From positions 1 through 23,036 of IMG/VR virus record IMGVR_UViG_3300044640_000150: 23,036 bases of DNA; one strand, given 5' to 3'. Below are positions 2,354-8,273 of this stretch, piece after piece. The position numbers and the translations under genes are program-made. The notes below the pieces were generated by a model. That model searched no databases. It saw only the letters and a list, made by a program, of their open reading frames with translations, and had not been told where the DNA came from. Each line of letters opens with the position of its first letter. Positions within the stretch are counted from its first letter, which is position 1. The DNA is from a virus.

Positions 2354-2370
2354 GGTATATACCTATGGCA
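2351..2370 (+). promoter_or_regulatory. TAGGG-type palindrome overlapping a stop and a start codon
   Basis: The 20-mer TAGGGTATATACCTATGGCA contains the stop codon of the 35-residue gene, a self-complementary core GGTATATACC, and the ATG of the next gene. A closely matching 20-mer lies at 4833-4852 (16 of 20 positions identical), also starting on a TAG stop and ending in ATGGCA. It may be an operator or a translation-coupling element; the role is unproven. Confidence 0.35.
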
Positions 2371-2577
2371 TACAGTAGAAAAAACATCTCTAATGCAGGA
2401 GACAGAGTTGTCCTAGAGAAAGCCGAAGCAAGGGAGATATACCGAACTTGGCAATCTCTGAGAGACAATGATTTTGTTCGTGCCAGGCTTGAGCGTTGCG
2501 AAAAGGTCTATGGATCAGGAGCAAGAGATCGAGTCAGGTTTTATATGCGTCAAATGAAAGAAGGACAAATTGAATGA
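2365..2577 (+). CDS. Basic helical hypothetical protein (70 aa)
   Basis: A highly charged protein with many Arg, Lys and Glu residues (EKAEAREIYRTWQSLRDNDF, then RARLERCEKVYGSGARDRVR). It is predicted all helical, with no metal or membrane motif. It begins at an ATG embedded in the TAGGG palindrome and ends in TGA 2575-2577, overlapping the ATG of the second methyltransferase-region frame. A nucleic-acid-binding role is plausible from charge only. Its last codons contain the AAGGA that serves as binding site for the following gene(s). Confidence 0.6.
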   Translation: MAYSRKNISNAGDRVVLEKAEAREIYRTWQSLRDNDFVRARLERCEKVYGSGARDRVRFYMRQMKEGQIE

Positions 2578-3598
2578 GTTGGCTTTATTCGCAGGTGCTG
2601 GTGGAGGCATTCTTGGAGGACATCTCCTTGGATGGAGAACAGTCTGTGCAGTCGAGTGGGAGCAATACCCCGCAAGCGTACTGTGCGCCCGACAAAATGA
2701 CGGGCTTCTCCCGCCTTTCCCGATTTGGGATGACGTTCAAACCTTTGACGGAAAGCCGTGGAGAGGAATTGTTGACGTTGTATCTGGCGGCTTTCCATGC
2801 CAAGACATCTCAGCCGCAGGGCGAGGCGCAGGGATTGATGGAGAACGAAGCGGAATGTGGGGAGAAATGGCGAGGATCATTCACGAAGTACGACCAGGTT
2901 TCGTGTTCGTGGAAAACTCACCAATGCTCACTTCTCGGGGACTTGGACGAGTTCTCGGAGACTTGGCCGCAATGGGGTTTGATGCGAAATGGGGAGTGTT
3001 GGGAGCAGCAGACGTTGGCGCAAACCATCAGAGGGACAGAATTTGGATTGTCGCCAAACAACGAAACATTCTTTCACACGCCTTGCACAACGGGGTTGGA
3101 CGGTGGCAGCAACAGCAGAAAAGCACTCAAAAAACGTCTTTTGCCAACACCAGATGCCAGTCAGAGAGGCCCTACAAAGGATTACAACCCACAAGCCAAA
3201 TCTCAATCGGGGAGGACGCTTCAATCGTTTGCGGCAAAGTTTCCGACTCCAACAACAATGGACACAATTACAAGAAGTCGAGAGAGTTATTTGCGAGTAC
3301 AGAACAGACCGAGACAAGGGAAGATGTTAACAAAATTAGCAGACATAATTCATTGGCCAACACCTCAAGCCTCGGACAATCGGGACAGGGGCAACATGAG
3401 CAACCCGTCAGTCCAGAGGCGTGTGGCAATTGGCAAGCAAATATCATTGAGTCAATCGGTTCATCCGACTTCTGGACAACTGAACCCAACGTGGGTCGAG
3501 TGGTTGATGGGATGGCCTCTAGAGTGGACAGACTTAAAGCCATTGGTAATGGACAAGTCCCCTTGTGTGCAGCAACCGCATGGAGAATCCTAAAATGA
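2570..3598 (+). CDS. DNA C5-cytosine methyltransferase (Dcm family), frame A of an overlapping pair
   Basis: The family motifs appear in order. SAM-binding ALFAGAGGG is at residues 5-13, catalytic GGFPCQ at 73-78 with nucleophile Cys77, VENSPML at 114-120, QRDRIW at 154-159, and the closing RLKAIGNGQVP at 321-331. It would methylate the C5 of cytosine in a short DNA site, for example to evade host restriction. Residues 165-300 replace a normal target-recognition domain with a low-complexity stretch of repeated ANT/SDS-like units, so specificity is unclear. The only start before motif I is TTG at 2570, just 4 nt after AAGGA, which is poor spacing. It ends in ATGA with the resolvase gene. A second frame of 339 codons lies entirely within it. 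Confidence 0.85.
   Translation: MNELALFAGAGGGILGGHLLGWRTVCAVEWEQYPASVLCARQNDGLLPPFPIWDDVQTFDGKPWRGIVDVVSGGFPCQDISAAGRGAGIDGERSGMWGEMARIIHEVRPGFVFVENSPMLTSRGLGRVLGDLAAMGFDAKWGVLGAADVGANHQRDRIWIVAKQRNILSHALHNGVGRWQQQQKSTQKTSFANTRCQSERPYKGLQPTSQISIGEDASIVCGKVSDSNNNGHNYKKSRELFASTEQTETREDVNKISRHNSLANTSSLGQSGQGQHEQPVSPEACGNWQANIIESIGSSDFWTTEPNVGRVVDGMASRVDRLKAIGNGQVPLCAATAWRILK
2574..3593 (+). CDS. Overlapping out-of-frame protein (339 aa) beginning MSWLYSQ, frame B
   Basis: This frame is open for 339 codons inside the methyltransferase gene, starting 4 nt after it and ending 5 nt before it. It has the better start: ATG at 2574 lies 8 nt after AAGGA and overlaps the TGA of the upstream gene (ATGA). 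The product has an N-terminal half rich in Ser, Trp and Glu, with FSRLSRFGMTFKPLTE at 45-60. It then has four HTP/PTP units (residues 168, 190, 224 and 262), three of them PTPxxxx, and a C-terminal block GQLNPTWVEWLMGWP at 301-315. From memory, proteins with MSWLYSQ and LNPxWVEWLMG blocks recur in phages, but I cannot verify this. No enzyme motif is recognised. It could be a real second gene or a by-product of constraint in frame A. Confidence 0.55.
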   Translation: MSWLYSQVLVEAFLEDISLDGEQSVQSSGSNTPQAYCAPDKMTGFSRLSRFGMTFKPLTESRGEELLTLYLAAFHAKTSQPQGEAQGLMENEAECGEKWRGSFTKYDQVSCSWKTHQCSLLGDLDEFSETWPQWGLMRNGECWEQQTLAQTIRGTEFGLSPNNETFFHTPCTTGLDGGSNSRKALKKRLLPTPDASQRGPTKDYNPQAKSQSGRTLQSFAAKFPTPTTMDTITRSRESYLRVQNRPRQGKMLTKLADIIHWPTPQASDNRDRGNMSNPSVQRRVAIGKQISLSQSVHPTSGQLNPTWVEWLMGWPLEWTDLKPLVMDKSPCVQQPHGES

Positions 3599-4023
3599 CA
3601 TTTATGGTGAATTTCAAAGTAGACGCTAACCCTGTTGGAAAACAAAGGGCTAGATACGTCAAGAGGGGAAACTTTGTGCAAACTTACACCCCTGAAAAGA
3701 CAAGAACCTATGAGACTTTAATCAGGGATTCTGCAATCGAGGCAATGGGTAGCTCAGAAGCCCTAGAAACCCCTGTTAGCCTTTATCTTTATATTCGAGT
3801 GCCAATCCCCAAGTCATGCACTAAAAAGCGGTTAGAAGCCATTGATAACGGGTCAGAGAAGCCAACAAAGAAGCCTGACGCAAGCAATATCCTCAAGAGC
3901 GTAGAAGATGGCATGAACGGGGTTGTTTACCATGACGACTCGCAGATCATAAACATCCACGTTACGAAGGTTTATTCGAGTCTGCCAGGTGTTGATATTT
4001 GCGTTAAGGAGTGTTTGGAATGA
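3595..4023 (+). CDS. rusA: RusA-like Holliday junction resolvase (142 aa)
   Basis: The C-terminal part carries the RusA signature: KPDASN (Asp95, Asn98), an EDGMNG stretch with Asp105, and YHDD with Asp114/115. These acidic residues hold the metal ions that cut four-way DNA junctions. The N-terminal GKQRAR and YTPEKTRTYE are also typical. It would resolve recombination and replication intermediates before packaging. I chose ATG 3595, which forms ATGA with the methyltransferase stop and has GGAG upstream; the longer frame from 3565 would run back into the methyltransferase gene. Length fits the family (about 120-150). Confidence 0.85.
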   Translation: MTFMVNFKVDANPVGKQRARYVKRGNFVQTYTPEKTRTYETLIRDSAIEAMGSSEALETPVSLYLYIRVPIPKSCTKKRLEAIDNGSEKPTKKPDASNILKSVEDGMNGVVYHDDSQIINIHVTKVYSSLPGVDICVKECLE

Positions 4024-4835
4024 GCAACCCATTTGAAATTATTGAGCCAACTTGCATCAGCTTCTCAGGAGGCAGAACATCGGCTTATATGCTTTACCGC
4101 ATTCTACAGGCTCACGACATGAGCCTACCGCCCGAAGCAATCGTATGCTTTGCCAATACAGGCAAGGAAGACCCAGCGACTCTAAAGTTTGTCCATGATT
4201 GCGAAACCCATTGGGGTGTGCCAATAACTTGGATTGAATACGATGGTGTAGACGAGGTCAAAGATCGATGGAAAATCGTCAATTACCAAACCGCAAGCAG
4301 AGAGGGAGAGCCTTTTGAGGCAATGGTAGAGCGCAAAAAGTATTTGCCAAACACTTTTGCTAGGTTTTGCACCCAAGAACTCAAGATTTTGCCTATCGAC
4401 AAGTACATGAAAAGCCTTGGACATGAGGAATATGTGACTTTTGTCGGCATCAGAGCAGACGAGCAAAGGCGTGTTGCCAAGATGAAAAACAACAAAGACA
4501 TCAAAGAAACACCACTTGCGACCGCAGGGATTGGCGTTAACGATGTTTTAGACTTTTGGTCTAAGCAGCCATTTGACCTTGATACTGTAACTGTTAATGG
4601 GAACTCATTGTTGAGCAATTGTGATCTTTGCTTCTTGAAAAAGGCAGATCATTTGATGGGGCTGATTATCGACAAACCTGAACGGGCTATTTGGTGGGCA
4701 AACATGGAGAAAAAGGTTGGTGCTAGGTTTAACCAGGCACACCCAAGTTATGTTGACATGATGCACTTCAATGCCAAACAACATGGATTGTTTGATCCCG
4801 ATGAGGAATCAATAGCGTGTTTTTGCGGAGATTAG
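4020..4835 (+). CDS. PAPS-reductase-like PP-loop protein (271 aa)
   Basis: SFSGGRTSA at residues 14-22 is the PP-loop that binds ATP or an adenylated sulfur donor in the adenine-nucleotide alpha hydrolase / PAPS reductase superfamily. FVGIRADEQRR at 141-151 is another conserved block. Cysteines at 117, 201, 204 and 267/269 (FCTQ, CDLC, CFC) could hold an iron-sulfur cluster or serve in sulfur transfer. Phages often carry such genes; proposed roles range from sulfur metabolism to DndC-like DNA or tRNA thiolation, none shown here. The ATG at 4020 overlaps the resolvase stop (ATGA) with AAGGAG upstream. No other dnd-type gene is visible in the window. Confidence 0.8.
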   Translation: MSNPFEIIEPTCISFSGGRTSAYMLYRILQAHDMSLPPEAIVCFANTGKEDPATLKFVHDCETHWGVPITWIEYDGVDEVKDRWKIVNYQTASREGEPFEAMVERKKYLPNTFARFCTQELKILPIDKYMKSLGHEEYVTFVGIRADEQRRVAKMKNNKDIKETPLATAGIGVNDVLDFWSKQPFDLDTVTVNGNSLLSNCDLCFLKKADHLMGLIIDKPERAIWWANMEKKVGARFNQAHPSYVDMMHFNAKQHGLFDPDEESIACFCGD

Positions 4836-5789: not shown

Positions 5790-6251
5790 ATGGCAATTAA
5801 ACGCACTTCAAAAGCACATAGAAATGAACTGCTCAAACTATATGGGCATAGGTATGAACGCCATTGGAGTGGTCGGGCTGGCTGCTTTTATTGTGGTGAT
5901 AAATGGTCAGAATTAGATCATTGCCCGCCATTATCTTGGTGCGACGCAAAAGAGCTTAAATGGTTCAAAGAGAGAAAAATAGGGTTTTACCTTGCCAACT
6001 CATGCAAAGACTGCAACCGAGCATTGGACAATAAGCCGTTTTTTACCCTTCAAGAACGTGCCGATTACATACGAAAACGCCTAGAAGCAAAATCAGAAAA
6101 AATTGTTTTGTGGAACAAGCAAGAAATTGCAGAAATGAGCGATCGATTTCAAAAGACCATAGAAGCACGACAAGCCCTGCAAACTATCATGCTAGAACGC
6201 CTCTGGTTCGCTCAGGAACTGCAATTCAGGGCTGAGGATTTCCCTGAGTAG
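5790..6251 (+). CDS. HNH-like endonuclease (153 aa)
   Basis: CFYC (Cys32, Cys35) and CKDC (Cys72, Cys75) could bind a structural zinc around ELDHCPPL, whose Asp43-His44 matches the first catalytic His of HNH nucleases; Asn76 could be the middle N. The C-terminal third is a long charged helix. The start at ATG 5790 follows a 47-nt gap with no strong binding site (GGGTAAAATGCCTTAA). It is the last gene of the rightward early operon, just before a hairpin terminator. It may act on DNA in recombination or superinfection exclusion; target unknown. Confidence 0.65.
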   Translation: MAIKRTSKAHRNELLKLYGHRYERHWSGRAGCFYCGDKWSELDHCPPLSWCDAKELKWFKERKIGFYLANSCKDCNRALDNKPFFTLQERADYIRKRLEAKSEKIVLWNKQEIAEMSDRFQKTIEARQALQTIMLERLWFAQELQFRAEDFPE

Positions 6252-6260
6252 CATAGACGT

Positions 6261-6290
6261 AAAAAAACCCTCCTAAGAGGGCTTAAATTT
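6261..6290. terminator. Bidirectional intrinsic terminator between converging operons
   Basis: CCCTC-CTAA-GAGGG (6268-6281) forms a tight 5-bp hairpin with a 4-nt loop. Read leftward it is followed by seven Ts, a strong rho-independent terminator for the operon coming from 8476. Read rightward it is followed by CTTAAATTT, a weaker tail for the early operon. Confidence 0.8.
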
Positions 6291-6303
6291 AGATTGAAAT
6301 TAG

Positions 6304-6513
6304 TTATTGTGTAATCTCTTCCCACTCCTTGATCCATGCCAAACATTCGGCTTTGGTGTCAAACATTGCAATTTGACCATCCCCGAGGTATTGCACCCAC
6401 CAATGAGCTTGAAACGGGTGCATTGTGCCGTACATATCTTTTTGAGTGCGAATATATCCATATTCAAAACCATTTAGATAATAGATTTTGGATTTTATTT
6501 TTGTAATGGTCAT
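6304..6513 (-). CDS. Small aromatic hypothetical protein (69 aa)
   Basis: Last gene of the leftward middle operon. A 69-residue protein, predicted beta-rich, with many aromatic residues (KIYYLNGFEYGYIR, AHWWVQYLGDG) and a C-terminal helix (TKAECLAWIKEWEE). It has no signal peptide. A binding site GAAAGG lies 8 nt before ATG 6513 on the minus strand. Function unknown; the small strand-plus-helix layout resembles many phage accessory proteins. Confidence 0.6.
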   Translation of the reverse strand: MTITKIKSKIYYLNGFEYGYIRTQKDMYGTMHPFQAHWWVQYLGDGQIAMFDTKAECLAWIKEWEEITQ

Positions 6514-6523
6514 AATAAACCTT

Positions 6524-6577
6524 TCATTTTTTACCAGTTAAAATTTTAAGAATTAATGCCAGGCAAGCATAAATCAT
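6524..6577 (-). CDS. Possible hydrophobic micropeptide (17 aa)
   Basis: A 17-codon frame (MIYACLALILKILTGKK) starts in an ATGA overlap with the 75-residue gene upstream. It ends in a TGA that runs straight into the AAAGG binding site of the next gene. Ten consecutive mostly hydrophobic residues with a Lys tail could insert in a membrane. The coupling geometry is the only support; chance is a serious alternative. Confidence 0.3.
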   Translation of the reverse strand: MIYACLALILKILTGKK

Positions 6578-6801
6578 AAAATCCCCAATATTGCTTCATT
6601 ATCACGATAACAACCATCAAAGCCAACTTCAATTGTGTAAATATCATTTACATATTCTTTCCACCAATCCCTTTCAATGCCATAATCTCTAGAGTGCTGG
6701 ATTAATCCTAGTTTTAATGTCATTATTGCTTTGGCTTCGGTTTTACCAAATGCGGTGAATTGAAAATTAATAGAATCAAATTTTGCTTGATAAAAGGTCA
6801 T
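6574..6801 (-). CDS. Hypothetical protein (75 aa)
   Basis: A soluble-looking 75-residue protein with alternating strand and helix (FYQAKFDSINFQFTAFGKTE, AKAIMTLKLGLIQHSRDYG, then an aromatic and acidic end). It has a binding site AGGTGG close to ATG 6801 and lies 11 nt after the stop of the 110-residue gene. No motif or homolog is recognised. Confidence 0.6.
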   Translation of the reverse strand: MTFYQAKFDSINFQFTAFGKTEAKAIMTLKLGLIQHSRDYGIERDWWKEYVNDIYTIEVGFDGCYRDNEAILGIL

Positions 6802-7223: not shown

Positions 7224-7844
7224 TTAAGCCACCTTTTGCTGCACTTGCATAAAATCAGGGTTTAAACCTTGATACGTTCCGGCATCATTACGCATTGGCA
7301 TAACGACAACAACGGCATTGTTTTGATTGTCATGAATAGCCCCTGAACCATCACCACGTTGCGACAACGGGAAAATCTTACCCTTTTTAGCCCCGTAATA
7401 CATTGCCAATGCCTCATTGCCCCTGACAAGCAAATCAGGTTCAAAATAGCTGGCTTTAATCTCTGAAAAAGCATCACGGGCAGGAACAACACGGGAAATA
7501 TCGGGGTAACGTGCATCGATGGCTTGAAAACGGGCATTACCTAAAAGATAATAATCTTTTGCACCGCCTTCAATTGTTTCCAAATCGATAAATTCTGACT
7601 TTTTATCAATGGCTTTAATGGTGTCAGATGGAATAATTATTTGAAACCCGTATTCTGTTGGTGCATCGATAACGACAATTGGGCATTGTCCCGCAAATAA
7701 AATGTGACCATCCGTCCCGTAAACCATTGCCACTTCTGGGTGATTGATTGAAATGCAAACCCCTTGCAAATAGTAACGAATATCTTTTTTTGCTGCACAA
7801 ATTAAAGCAGAACGAAGAACCGAAGTTTTGAGAGTGATTTTCAT
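7224..7844 (-). CDS. Phage DNA sliding-clamp-like protein (beta-clamp fold, 206 aa)
   Basis: The N-terminus resembles the DnaN-like clamps of phages: a Lys/Ala-rich first helix, then DIRYYLQGVCISI (residues 21-33) and YGTDGHILF (42-50), the latter matching the ATDGHRL block of bacterial beta clamps. At 206 residues it is much shorter than DnaN (about 366) and probably holds two clamp domains or fewer. It would tether a polymerase or repair enzyme to DNA. No polymerase gene is in the window. The last residues are QVQQKVA. Start ATG 7844 follows AAAGGCTTCAAC. The call rests on short motifs and the family's common presence in phages. Confidence 0.65.
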   Translation of the reverse strand: MKITLKTSVLRSALICAAKKDIRYYLQGVCISINHPEVAMVYGTDGHILFAGQCPIVVIDAPTEYGFQIIIPSDTIKAIDKKSEFIDLETIEGGAKDYYLLGNARFQAIDARYPDISRVVPARDAFSEIKASYFEPDLLVRGNEALAMYYGAKKGKIFPLSQRGDGSGAIHDNQNNAVVVVMPMRNDAGTYQGLNPDFMQVQQKVA

Positions 7845-7923
7845 GTTGAAGCCTTTTGAAAGTTGAAACCCTAGGCAATTCCTAGGCCATTGACCCCTAA
7901 TCTAAGGGTCAACAGTCTAAGGT
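7845..7923 (-). promoter_or_regulatory. Intercistronic structured leader, copy 2
   Basis: Same layout as copy 1. CTTAGACTG is followed by a 7-bp hairpin (TTGACCC 7890-7896 with GGGTCAA 7906-7912), then CCTAGG at 7881-7886 and 7870-7875, then AGGCTTCAACATG. Compared with copy 1, two base pairs of the stem are changed on both sides (A-T to T-A and A-T to G-C), so pairing is kept. It lies in front of the sliding-clamp-like gene. Confidence 0.55.
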
Positions 7924-8019
7924 TTAAGCGAATAAAACATCAAAGTAAGCAAGCAGACCCACGCAAAGCATAAGACCCAAACCAATGGCCGTCAGAATGT
8001 CCAAAATTGTGTTTTTCAT
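7924..8019 (-). CDS. Single-span membrane micropeptide (31 aa)
   Basis: A 31-codon frame starts at ATG 8019, overlapping the TGA of the upstream gene (ATGA), and stops just before structured leader copy 2. The peptide begins MKNTILDILTAIGLGLMLCV and continues through a hydrophobic run of about 20 residues ending DVLFA, so one transmembrane helix with a short positively charged N-terminus. Small phage membrane peptides can affect superinfection or lysis timing, but no specific role is visible. Confidence 0.55.
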   Translation of the reverse strand: MKNTILDILTAIGLGLMLCVGLLAYFDVLFA

Positions 8020-8273
8020 AATTTCACTTTCCAAATGTCAACAACAGTATCTGGGGCAAACCATCTTTGCTTAGAGTCGGGTGCATCTTTATGGGACAAA
8101 TAAACTGTTTTCTCAGACCTTTCCCGCCATGCAGACCCAACTTCGTCATAAAGGGTTTTACCTTTCCAGAGTGTAAATTTCCAATCATCGGGGATTGATC
8201 CATTCATTTCGAGGTCTGCAAGGTCTGTGATAGCCATTGAACAAACCAAATATTTCCAAACATAGGTTTTCAT
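8016..8273 (-). CDS. Hypothetical protein (85 aa)
   Basis: An 85-residue protein with several Trp residues and a mixed charge pattern (SIPDDWKFTLWKGKTLYDEV, then WRERSEKTVYLSHKDAPDS). It is predicted beta-rich after an N-terminal helix. It overlaps the gene before it and the membrane micropeptide after it by ATGA, so the three are probably translated together. Not recognised. Confidence 0.6.
   Translation of the reverse strand: MKTYVWKYLVCSMAITDLADLEMNGSIPDDWKFTLWKGKTLYDEVGSAWRERSEKTVYLSHKDAPDSKQRWFAPDTVVDIWKVKL

Follow-up and report, generated by a model that had tools for sequence, protein, structure and literature searches.

Two reading frames that lie over the same DNA of a tailed phage probably encode, between them, the two chains of one split C5-cytosine DNA methyltransferase. 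The strongest result is a switch of selection: computed on related loci, in which both frames are open, selection bears on frame A, passes to frame B, and returns to frame A. Frame A would contribute the catalytic domain, with motifs I-VIII, the binding of the cofactor and the transfer of the methyl group, together with motif X. Frame B, translated from its own ATG, would supply in its C-terminal half the target-recognition region (TRD) and a motif-IX-like block, and also, over A's motifs I-VIII, an N-terminal module. The complex of the two chains would presumably methylate phage DNA against host restriction. The window, by which we mean the whole stretch of DNA that was analysed, is a virus record of 23,036 bases; the features of the locus are the following.

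2365..2577, + strand: upstream ORF, whose TGA (2575-2577) overlaps B's ATG (ATGA coupling)
2561..2565, + strand: AAGGA, Shine-Dalgarno-like, 8 nt from B's ATG and only 4 nt from A's TTG
2570..3598, + strand: frame A, C5-cytosine methyltransferase subunit (PF00145, phrog_363, codon-position test)
2574..3593, + strand: frame B, putative TRD-bearing beta subunit (phrog_1008, recoding trials, relatives, codon-position test)
2574..3053, + strand: N-terminal module of B, residues 1-160, over A's motifs I-VIII
2585..2608, + strand: A motif I (LFAGAGGG)
2786..2812, + strand: A motif IV, with the catalytic Cys (GGFPCQDIS)
2909..2929, + strand: A motif VI (VENSPML)
3029..3055, + strand: A motif VIII (QRDRIWIVA)
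3144..3365, + strand: TRD-like stretch of B, in the selected frame, its putative role taken from its position
3144-3152, 3243-3251 and 3357-3365, + strand: the three PTP units of B
3480..3518, + strand: motif-IX-like block of B, LNPTWVEWLMGWP, so called by pattern and position only
3530..3562, + strand: A motif X (RLKAIGNGQVP)
3595..4023, + strand: downstream RusA-like resolvase gene, whose start overlaps A's stop, and which served as control gene

Frame A runs from the TTG at 2570 to the TGA at 3596-3598 and codes for 342 amino acids. Frame B starts 4 nt inside A, in frame +1 relative to A, and runs from the ATG at 2574 to the TAA at 3591-3593, for 339 amino acids. An earlier note on this DNA had reported a second frame open over 339 codons, with an ATGA-coupled ATG and a well-spaced AAGGA: both the frame and the signals, with the AAGGA 8 nt before the ATG, are found again here. 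The upstream ORF has no match to a PHROGs family at E 0.001, and the ORF of the RusA-like gene, 3565-4023, matches phrog_140 (E 3e-42). A PHROGs scan of ten window proteins yields primosomal protein, RusA resolvase, PAPS reductase, terminase, portal and major head families, and it is from such matches that the phage is taken to be tailed.

The family of frame A is clear. It matches PF00145 over residues 4-259 (E 2.9e-31) and phrog_363 over residues 1-340 (E 1.4e-65), and the profile of the A family matches the M.HhaI chain (residues 16-172, E 5.2e-16). The five stretches of A listed above are those that we take to be motifs I, IV, VI, VIII and X. Frame A thus contains the catalytic domain of a C5-cytosine DNA methyltransferase (PF00145; motifs I, IV, VI and VIII) and a C-terminal motif X (GNxxxP), the match with phrog_363 extending to residue 340. 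What it does not contain in one chain is a motif IX and a TRD between VIII and X: a search with a PSSM finds no above-chance match for motif IX in A. For this reason, and because selection from VIII to X does not bear on A, we do not file A as a complete enzyme; its residues between VIII and X read as a passenger, or linker, that would be largely dictated by the code of B.

The openness of B has to be judged against A. The chance first put forward for it, (61/64)^339, relies on the wrong null, because A constrains B. In the null used here the protein of A is kept and its codons are redrawn under three codon models, with 20,000 trials each. With the codon usage of ten other window genes, B is open in 0/20,000 trials, with a mean of 9.3 stops; with A's own codon usage it is open in 20/20,000, and under a shuffle of A's own codons, in 7/20,000. 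The reverse test, in which the protein of B is kept, leaves A open in 0/20,000 trials, and the longest +1 run in the ten other window genes is 66 codons. Frame B is more than a shadow of A.

Viral contigs scanned with B gave at least 598 relatives in at least 600 stretches, and bacterial genomes scanned with an alignment of B gave 174 relatives in 262 stretches; 80 loci were kept from each. All 160 (80/80 viral and 80/80 from bacterial genomes) have the +1 overlap of both frames, in a sample found with B as query, so that the presence of B there is not an independent count. Among the matches listed for annotated records there are 33 phage, 5 plasmid and 4 E. coli records, the E. coli query being a Salmonella phage relative. 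Of these 42 annotated regions, 19 were examined: 14 have the overlap and a match to the profile of the N-terminal part of B (the B-N profile), and the other 5 have an IX-like block in the +1 frame, without a B-N match. Over 175 loci, window included, the overlap ranges from 242 to 1091 nt, with a median of 827. Frame B is never wholly separate from A; only its C-terminal part extends past A in some relatives.

The start of B could be followed in 81 of 86 sequences (loci L001-L085 and the window, less L008, L020, L081, L083 and L084), those whose alignment reaches residue 1, and it is an ATG in 81/81. An ATG, GTG or TTG that could serve A is present 4 nt upstream of it in 60/81 loci, so A starts elsewhere in the other 21. 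Requiring complete frames and an A of at least 240 amino acids removes L002, L061 and L079, which leaves 78 loci, of which 70 are non-redundant. The ordered features that had been singled out in B, namely the MSW start, the PTP units and the LNPxWVEWLMGWP block, all recur among relatives. Two of these, L055 and L071, are especially close in the N half of A, matching that of the window at 93-94% over residues 1-166 and 1-161.

Some loci depart from this layout. A stop breaks frame A between VIII and X in L040, L114 and L136, and earlier in L061, L113, L143 and L153, with B open in all of them; in L011 and L159, A has no X at its end. A single stop hits both frames in L093, and the frames swap in the middle of the gene in L152. 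The broken A frames may reflect sequencing error, decay or a further split. Public records also annotate B as hypothetical with A omitted or reduced to a fragment: this is seen in L206 (1501-2229) and L208 (1501-2199), where B alone is annotated and A omitted, and in L084 (2465-3139).

The frame under selection is identified with a codon-position test on disjoint pairs of viral loci, 70-97% identical, in which position 1 of A's codons is position 3 of B's. Over codons 1-160, which hold motifs I-VIII, the difference rates at positions A1, A2 and A3 are 0.116, 0.061 and 0.255; the ratio A1/A3 is 0.45, and A1 exceeds A3 in 0/39 pairs. From VIII to X, the rates are 0.370, 0.142 and 0.105, with a ratio of 3.52 (95% CI 2.98-4.16), and A1 exceeds A3 in 34/34 pairs: the most variable position is A1, or B3, and consequently B is the selected frame there. 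In the last 45 codons the rates are 0.139, 0.072 and 0.158, for a ratio of 0.88, with A1 above A3 in 11/36 pairs. The downstream RusA gene, taken as control, displays the normal pattern (0.089, 0.065, 0.355), and a second control, the region from VIII to X of methyltransferases resembling that of the pneumococcal phage MM1, has a ratio of 0.47, with A1 above A3 in 1/27 pairs, and no switch.

The passage from A to B takes place at A codons 161-170, just past motif VIII, and B is the selected frame from there until about 40 codons before A's stop. Both frames are constrained from about 40 to 20 codons before that stop, where the IX-like block lies over the approach to X, and A is selected again from about 20 to 5 codons before it, over motif X. 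A within-pair permutation test adds a weak signal for the N half of B (median Z of 1.5, with 94% of pairs positive vs 40% in the control frame), and gives a median Z of 0 for the C-terminal codons.

A passage of PMC3404938 has the DNA-recognising part of C5 enzymes expected in their variable region. Since B is the selected frame over that region, the target-recognition region of the enzyme would be coded in B, and the residues that read the DNA would presumably be residues of B.

Profile searches give B a family. It matches phrog_1008 over residues 59-321 (E 1e-29); the end of this profile also weakly matches the motif X stretch of A (E 0.038), and for the B of locus L154, which contains an X block, the match reaches profile position 317 (E 5e-31). 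Both phrog_1008 and phrog_363 are labelled DNA methyltransferase; B fits the first and A the second, and the labels are silent on their being two overlapping halves. In Streptomyces phage Samy, a phrog_116 gene is annotated beside a phrog_1008 gene. Pfam assigns no methyltransferase family to the B of the window, nor to 71 relatives of B, which collect scattered names at chance level (best E 0.015), and PF00145 gives no hit in the B-frame C-termini of L033, L030, L081, L126 and L154. Sequence searches of the PDB with B give E-values of 0.24 and 0.1. The AlphaFold2 models are of low confidence, with a mean pLDDT of 53 for B (71-row alignment) and of 47 for A (69-row alignment), low even for A, though its fold is known.

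The motif-IX-like block was tested in two ways. Aligned with hhalign, it falls in the correct register, with a probability of at most 0.5 per cent, which is not significant. With a PSSM built from ten ordinary enzymes, the best score in B is reached by 280/1000 shuffles, the block ranks first among the 18-mers of B in only 52/70 loci, and a similar-scoring match exists in A.

The distribution of motifs between the two chains varies among relatives. The main class has X in A and the IX-like block in B, as in 74/80 viral loci (plus one with a split A) and 70/80 loci from bacterial genomes (plus four with a split A). In L033, L126 and L154, frame A ends without X, right after motif VIII in the last two and at 266 codons in the first, and B carries the PTP units, the IX-like block and X. 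Locus L030 has X in B, plus a profile match for X in A. In L084 it is A that has both X and the IX-like block, the PTP stretch being in B. Two methyltransferase genes are annotated in Arthrobacter phage RedFox, and the second is the C-terminal part of B, with the IX-like block and X. A split enzyme would be expected to leave pairs like these, in which one chain has what the other lacks.

In M.EcoHK31I, the beta gene lies inside the alpha gene, in another frame. The window shares with it the presence of X in A and of a second polypeptide encoded within the other frame of the first gene. M.EcoHK31I (YGGCCR) is described in part of PMC3404938 as consisting of two polypeptides, a large one with I-VIII and X and a smaller one with motif IX only, and the title of a 1995 article by Lee, Kam and Shaw, in the reference list of that source, states that both proteins are needed for methylation in vitro. 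The likeness drawn here is one of description, and there are differences: the B of the window covers nearly all of A, and it has an IX-like block by pattern and position, with profile scores that are not significant. Moreover, the predicted TRD of M.EcoHK31I is placed in the large subunit in that same part of PMC3404938, whereas the selected frame in the corresponding region of the window is B. The split of M.AquI falls within the variable region, with the rest of that region, IX and X in the smaller chain, as a passage of PMC3404938 puts it; this division of labour resembles that of L033, L126 and L154, in which A ends before X and B has the IX-like block and X, and differs from that of the window, which has X in A.

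Total overlap of C5-methyltransferase frames is reported in a section of PMC5601072 for the Streptococcus thermophilus 5093-group phages, and similar overlaps are cited there for the pneumococcal phage MM1 and the conjugative transposon Tn5252. As in the window, the second ORF of the MM1 and 5093 type is in +1, over the motifs up to VIII. However, the frame A of MM1 and 5093 has its own VIII-IX region and standard motifs IX and X, and their second ORF stops about 25 codons past motif VIII, when the B of the window is full length. The MM1/5093 type, with a complete A and a short +1 ORF, was thus rejected for the window, where A has no recognisable IX and B is full length. The hidden HNH gene within a phage methylase, described in part of PMC11855218, is unrelated.

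The novelty is reduced by these reports, both of total frame overlap in a phage C5-methyltransferase (PMC5601072) and of two-chain enzymes (PMC3404938). The literature consulted, mostly open-access, yielded no work on which frame is selected, on a second-frame TRD or on a partition differing among relatives, which is a weak negative. What looks new here is the place of the recognition region, the varying split of motifs among relatives, and the selected N-terminal module.

This module can be separated from the shadow of A. Scored with the B-N profile, loci from bacterial genomes have a median of 167 bits vs 79 for codon-shuffled A, and 69/69 analysed loci (of 80) score above all 20 shuffles of their own codons, so that B has homologs beyond the shadow of the methyltransferase. 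In the 70 non-redundant viral loci, B-selected and including the window, codons 2-160 of B contain no stop in 70/70, when 3.2 are expected (0.56 in codons 2-30 and 2.62 in codons 31-160). The synonymous sites of A give a mixed answer: fourfold-site identity in the N half is 60-83% vs 43% in RusA, but MM1-like genes have nearly equal values. Fourfold-site suppression, once considered as proof of the N half of B, was therefore downgraded, the MM1-like values being near-identical at equal protein identity; yet the MM1-like set is not a B-free control, since its own +1 frame is open.

The MM1-like set comprises L212 (6055-7023, with a +1 ORF at 6212-6640), L213 (7477-8634, with a +1 ORF at 7571-8053) and L214-L292. 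In the stretch up to and through motif VIII it has 0.24 stops in +1 vs 5.59 expected, and the frame is open in 57/71 analysed loci (of 79). Counted over codons 31-160, 58/72 MM1-like loci have no +1 stop, with 5.8 expected. Ordinary C5 methyltransferases have 6.0 stops vs 7.1 expected (6 bacterial) and 3.1 vs 4.2 (17 viral), and their +1 frame is open in 1/23 analysed loci. Since the +1 frame is kept open in the MM1-like set, the overlapping ORF already published for streptococcal phages seems to be a gene under selection. For these counts, the regex and open-frame filters kept 6/10 bacterial and 17/27 viral ordinary enzymes, 71/79 MM1-like loci, 69/70 non-redundant viral loci and 69/80 bacterial-genome loci.

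Whether the MM1-like module is the same as that of the window is a related question. With the B-N profile, 28/71 MM1-like loci score above all their own shuffles, with a median of 23.0 bits; 5/11 scored ordinary viral enzymes also do, at lower scores, with a median of -1.3 bits. (In all, hmmsearch gave scores for 3 bacterial and 11 viral ordinary enzymes, of which 1 and 5 beat their own shuffles, and for 71 MM1-like loci and 69 genome loci.) The +1 ORF of MM1 itself, 7571-8053, reaches 35.5 bits; its annotated gene is a member of phrog_16143 and also matches phrog_1008 weakly (E 0.0005). Homology of the module between MM1-like phages and the window is thus suggested as likely, but not secure. 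The module seems to be of use by itself: it is kept in MM1-like phages, in two of which, MM1 and 5093, A was seen to be complete, so that this use would be independent of the missing half.

Could B be a mere shadow ORF, open and conserved because of A's conserved protein and codon use? We regard this as very improbable. It is true that codon-shuffled A gives about half of the B-N score (median 79 of 167 bits), that 5 of the 11 ordinary viral enzymes scored beat their own shuffles, with low scores, and that the substitution ratio of the N half is 0.45 both in the window family and in MM1-like genes. However, the expected stops are absent from B, when ordinary C5 methyltransferases are near or slightly under expectation, with 1/23 open; and for the C-terminal half the idea is refuted by the selection on B between VIII and X in 34/34 pairs. 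Programmed ribosomal frameshifting, which would lead from A to B after motif VIII in one chain and leave B's own start unused, would agree with selected segments ordered A then B, and with the B of L033, L126 and L154, which continues through X. We still consider it very unlikely: the return of X to A in the window and in the main class would require a second shift, and frameshifting has no need of an N half of B that is open in 70/70 loci, starts with ATG in 81/81 and scores above the shadow in 69/69.

There is also the possibility that B is a real overlapping protein of another kind, a regulator, inhibitor or chaperone, and that the methyltransferase works alone in A. MM1 and 5093, with their complete single-frame enzyme, lend it some weight, as the MM1-like +1 frame nevertheless stays open to motif VIII. 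We find it unlikely, because a methyltransferase made of A alone would be left without a selected recognition region, B being the selected frame from VIII to X, and because A ends right after VIII in L126 and L154, or before X in L033. The selection on B between VIII and X is also why, of the "partner or modulator" of the earlier note, we retain the partner, a modulator being less likely than the missing half of the enzyme. The sequence evidence supports a methyltransferase with a partner encoded over it, as that note proposed, and the three tests that could have spoken against B, on its homologs, on its stops in relatives and on A's synonymous sites, do not refute it.

Given a split enzyme, it is possible, though we put it forward tentatively and with some doubt, that its recognition half moved between reading frames. 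An overprinted partner would have arisen over motifs I-VIII while frame A was complete, as in MM1-like phages; a downstream extension of this partner would then have brought the target-recognition region and motif IX into its own frame, as in the window; and in some lineages (L033, L126, L154) motif X would have followed, with a shortened frame A. The order of these steps is one that we infer.

If A and B do form one enzyme, a phage could alter its target specificity in one frame while catalysis is held in the other. Many genes of phages and prophages whose annotation now reads as one cytosine methyltransferase, or as a hypothetical protein, would encode one half of a two-frame enzyme; the annotated frame, expressed by itself, would yield an inactive protein and a wrong call of specificity. 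The locus is a clear natural case of selection passing between frames and back within a single piece of DNA, and it opens to testing the question of how an alternative frame can house a functional domain.

Two minor observations can be added. The second gene downstream of the methyltransferase in the window, at 4011-4835, is of the phosphoadenosine phosphosulfate reductase family. In an E. coli prophage region (L092) there are two cytosine methyltransferase genes, at 58-1044 and 3016-3753; the +1 frame of the first is also open, and with its PTP-type units and its LNPAHSRWLMGLP block it shows the same layout in a more distant form.
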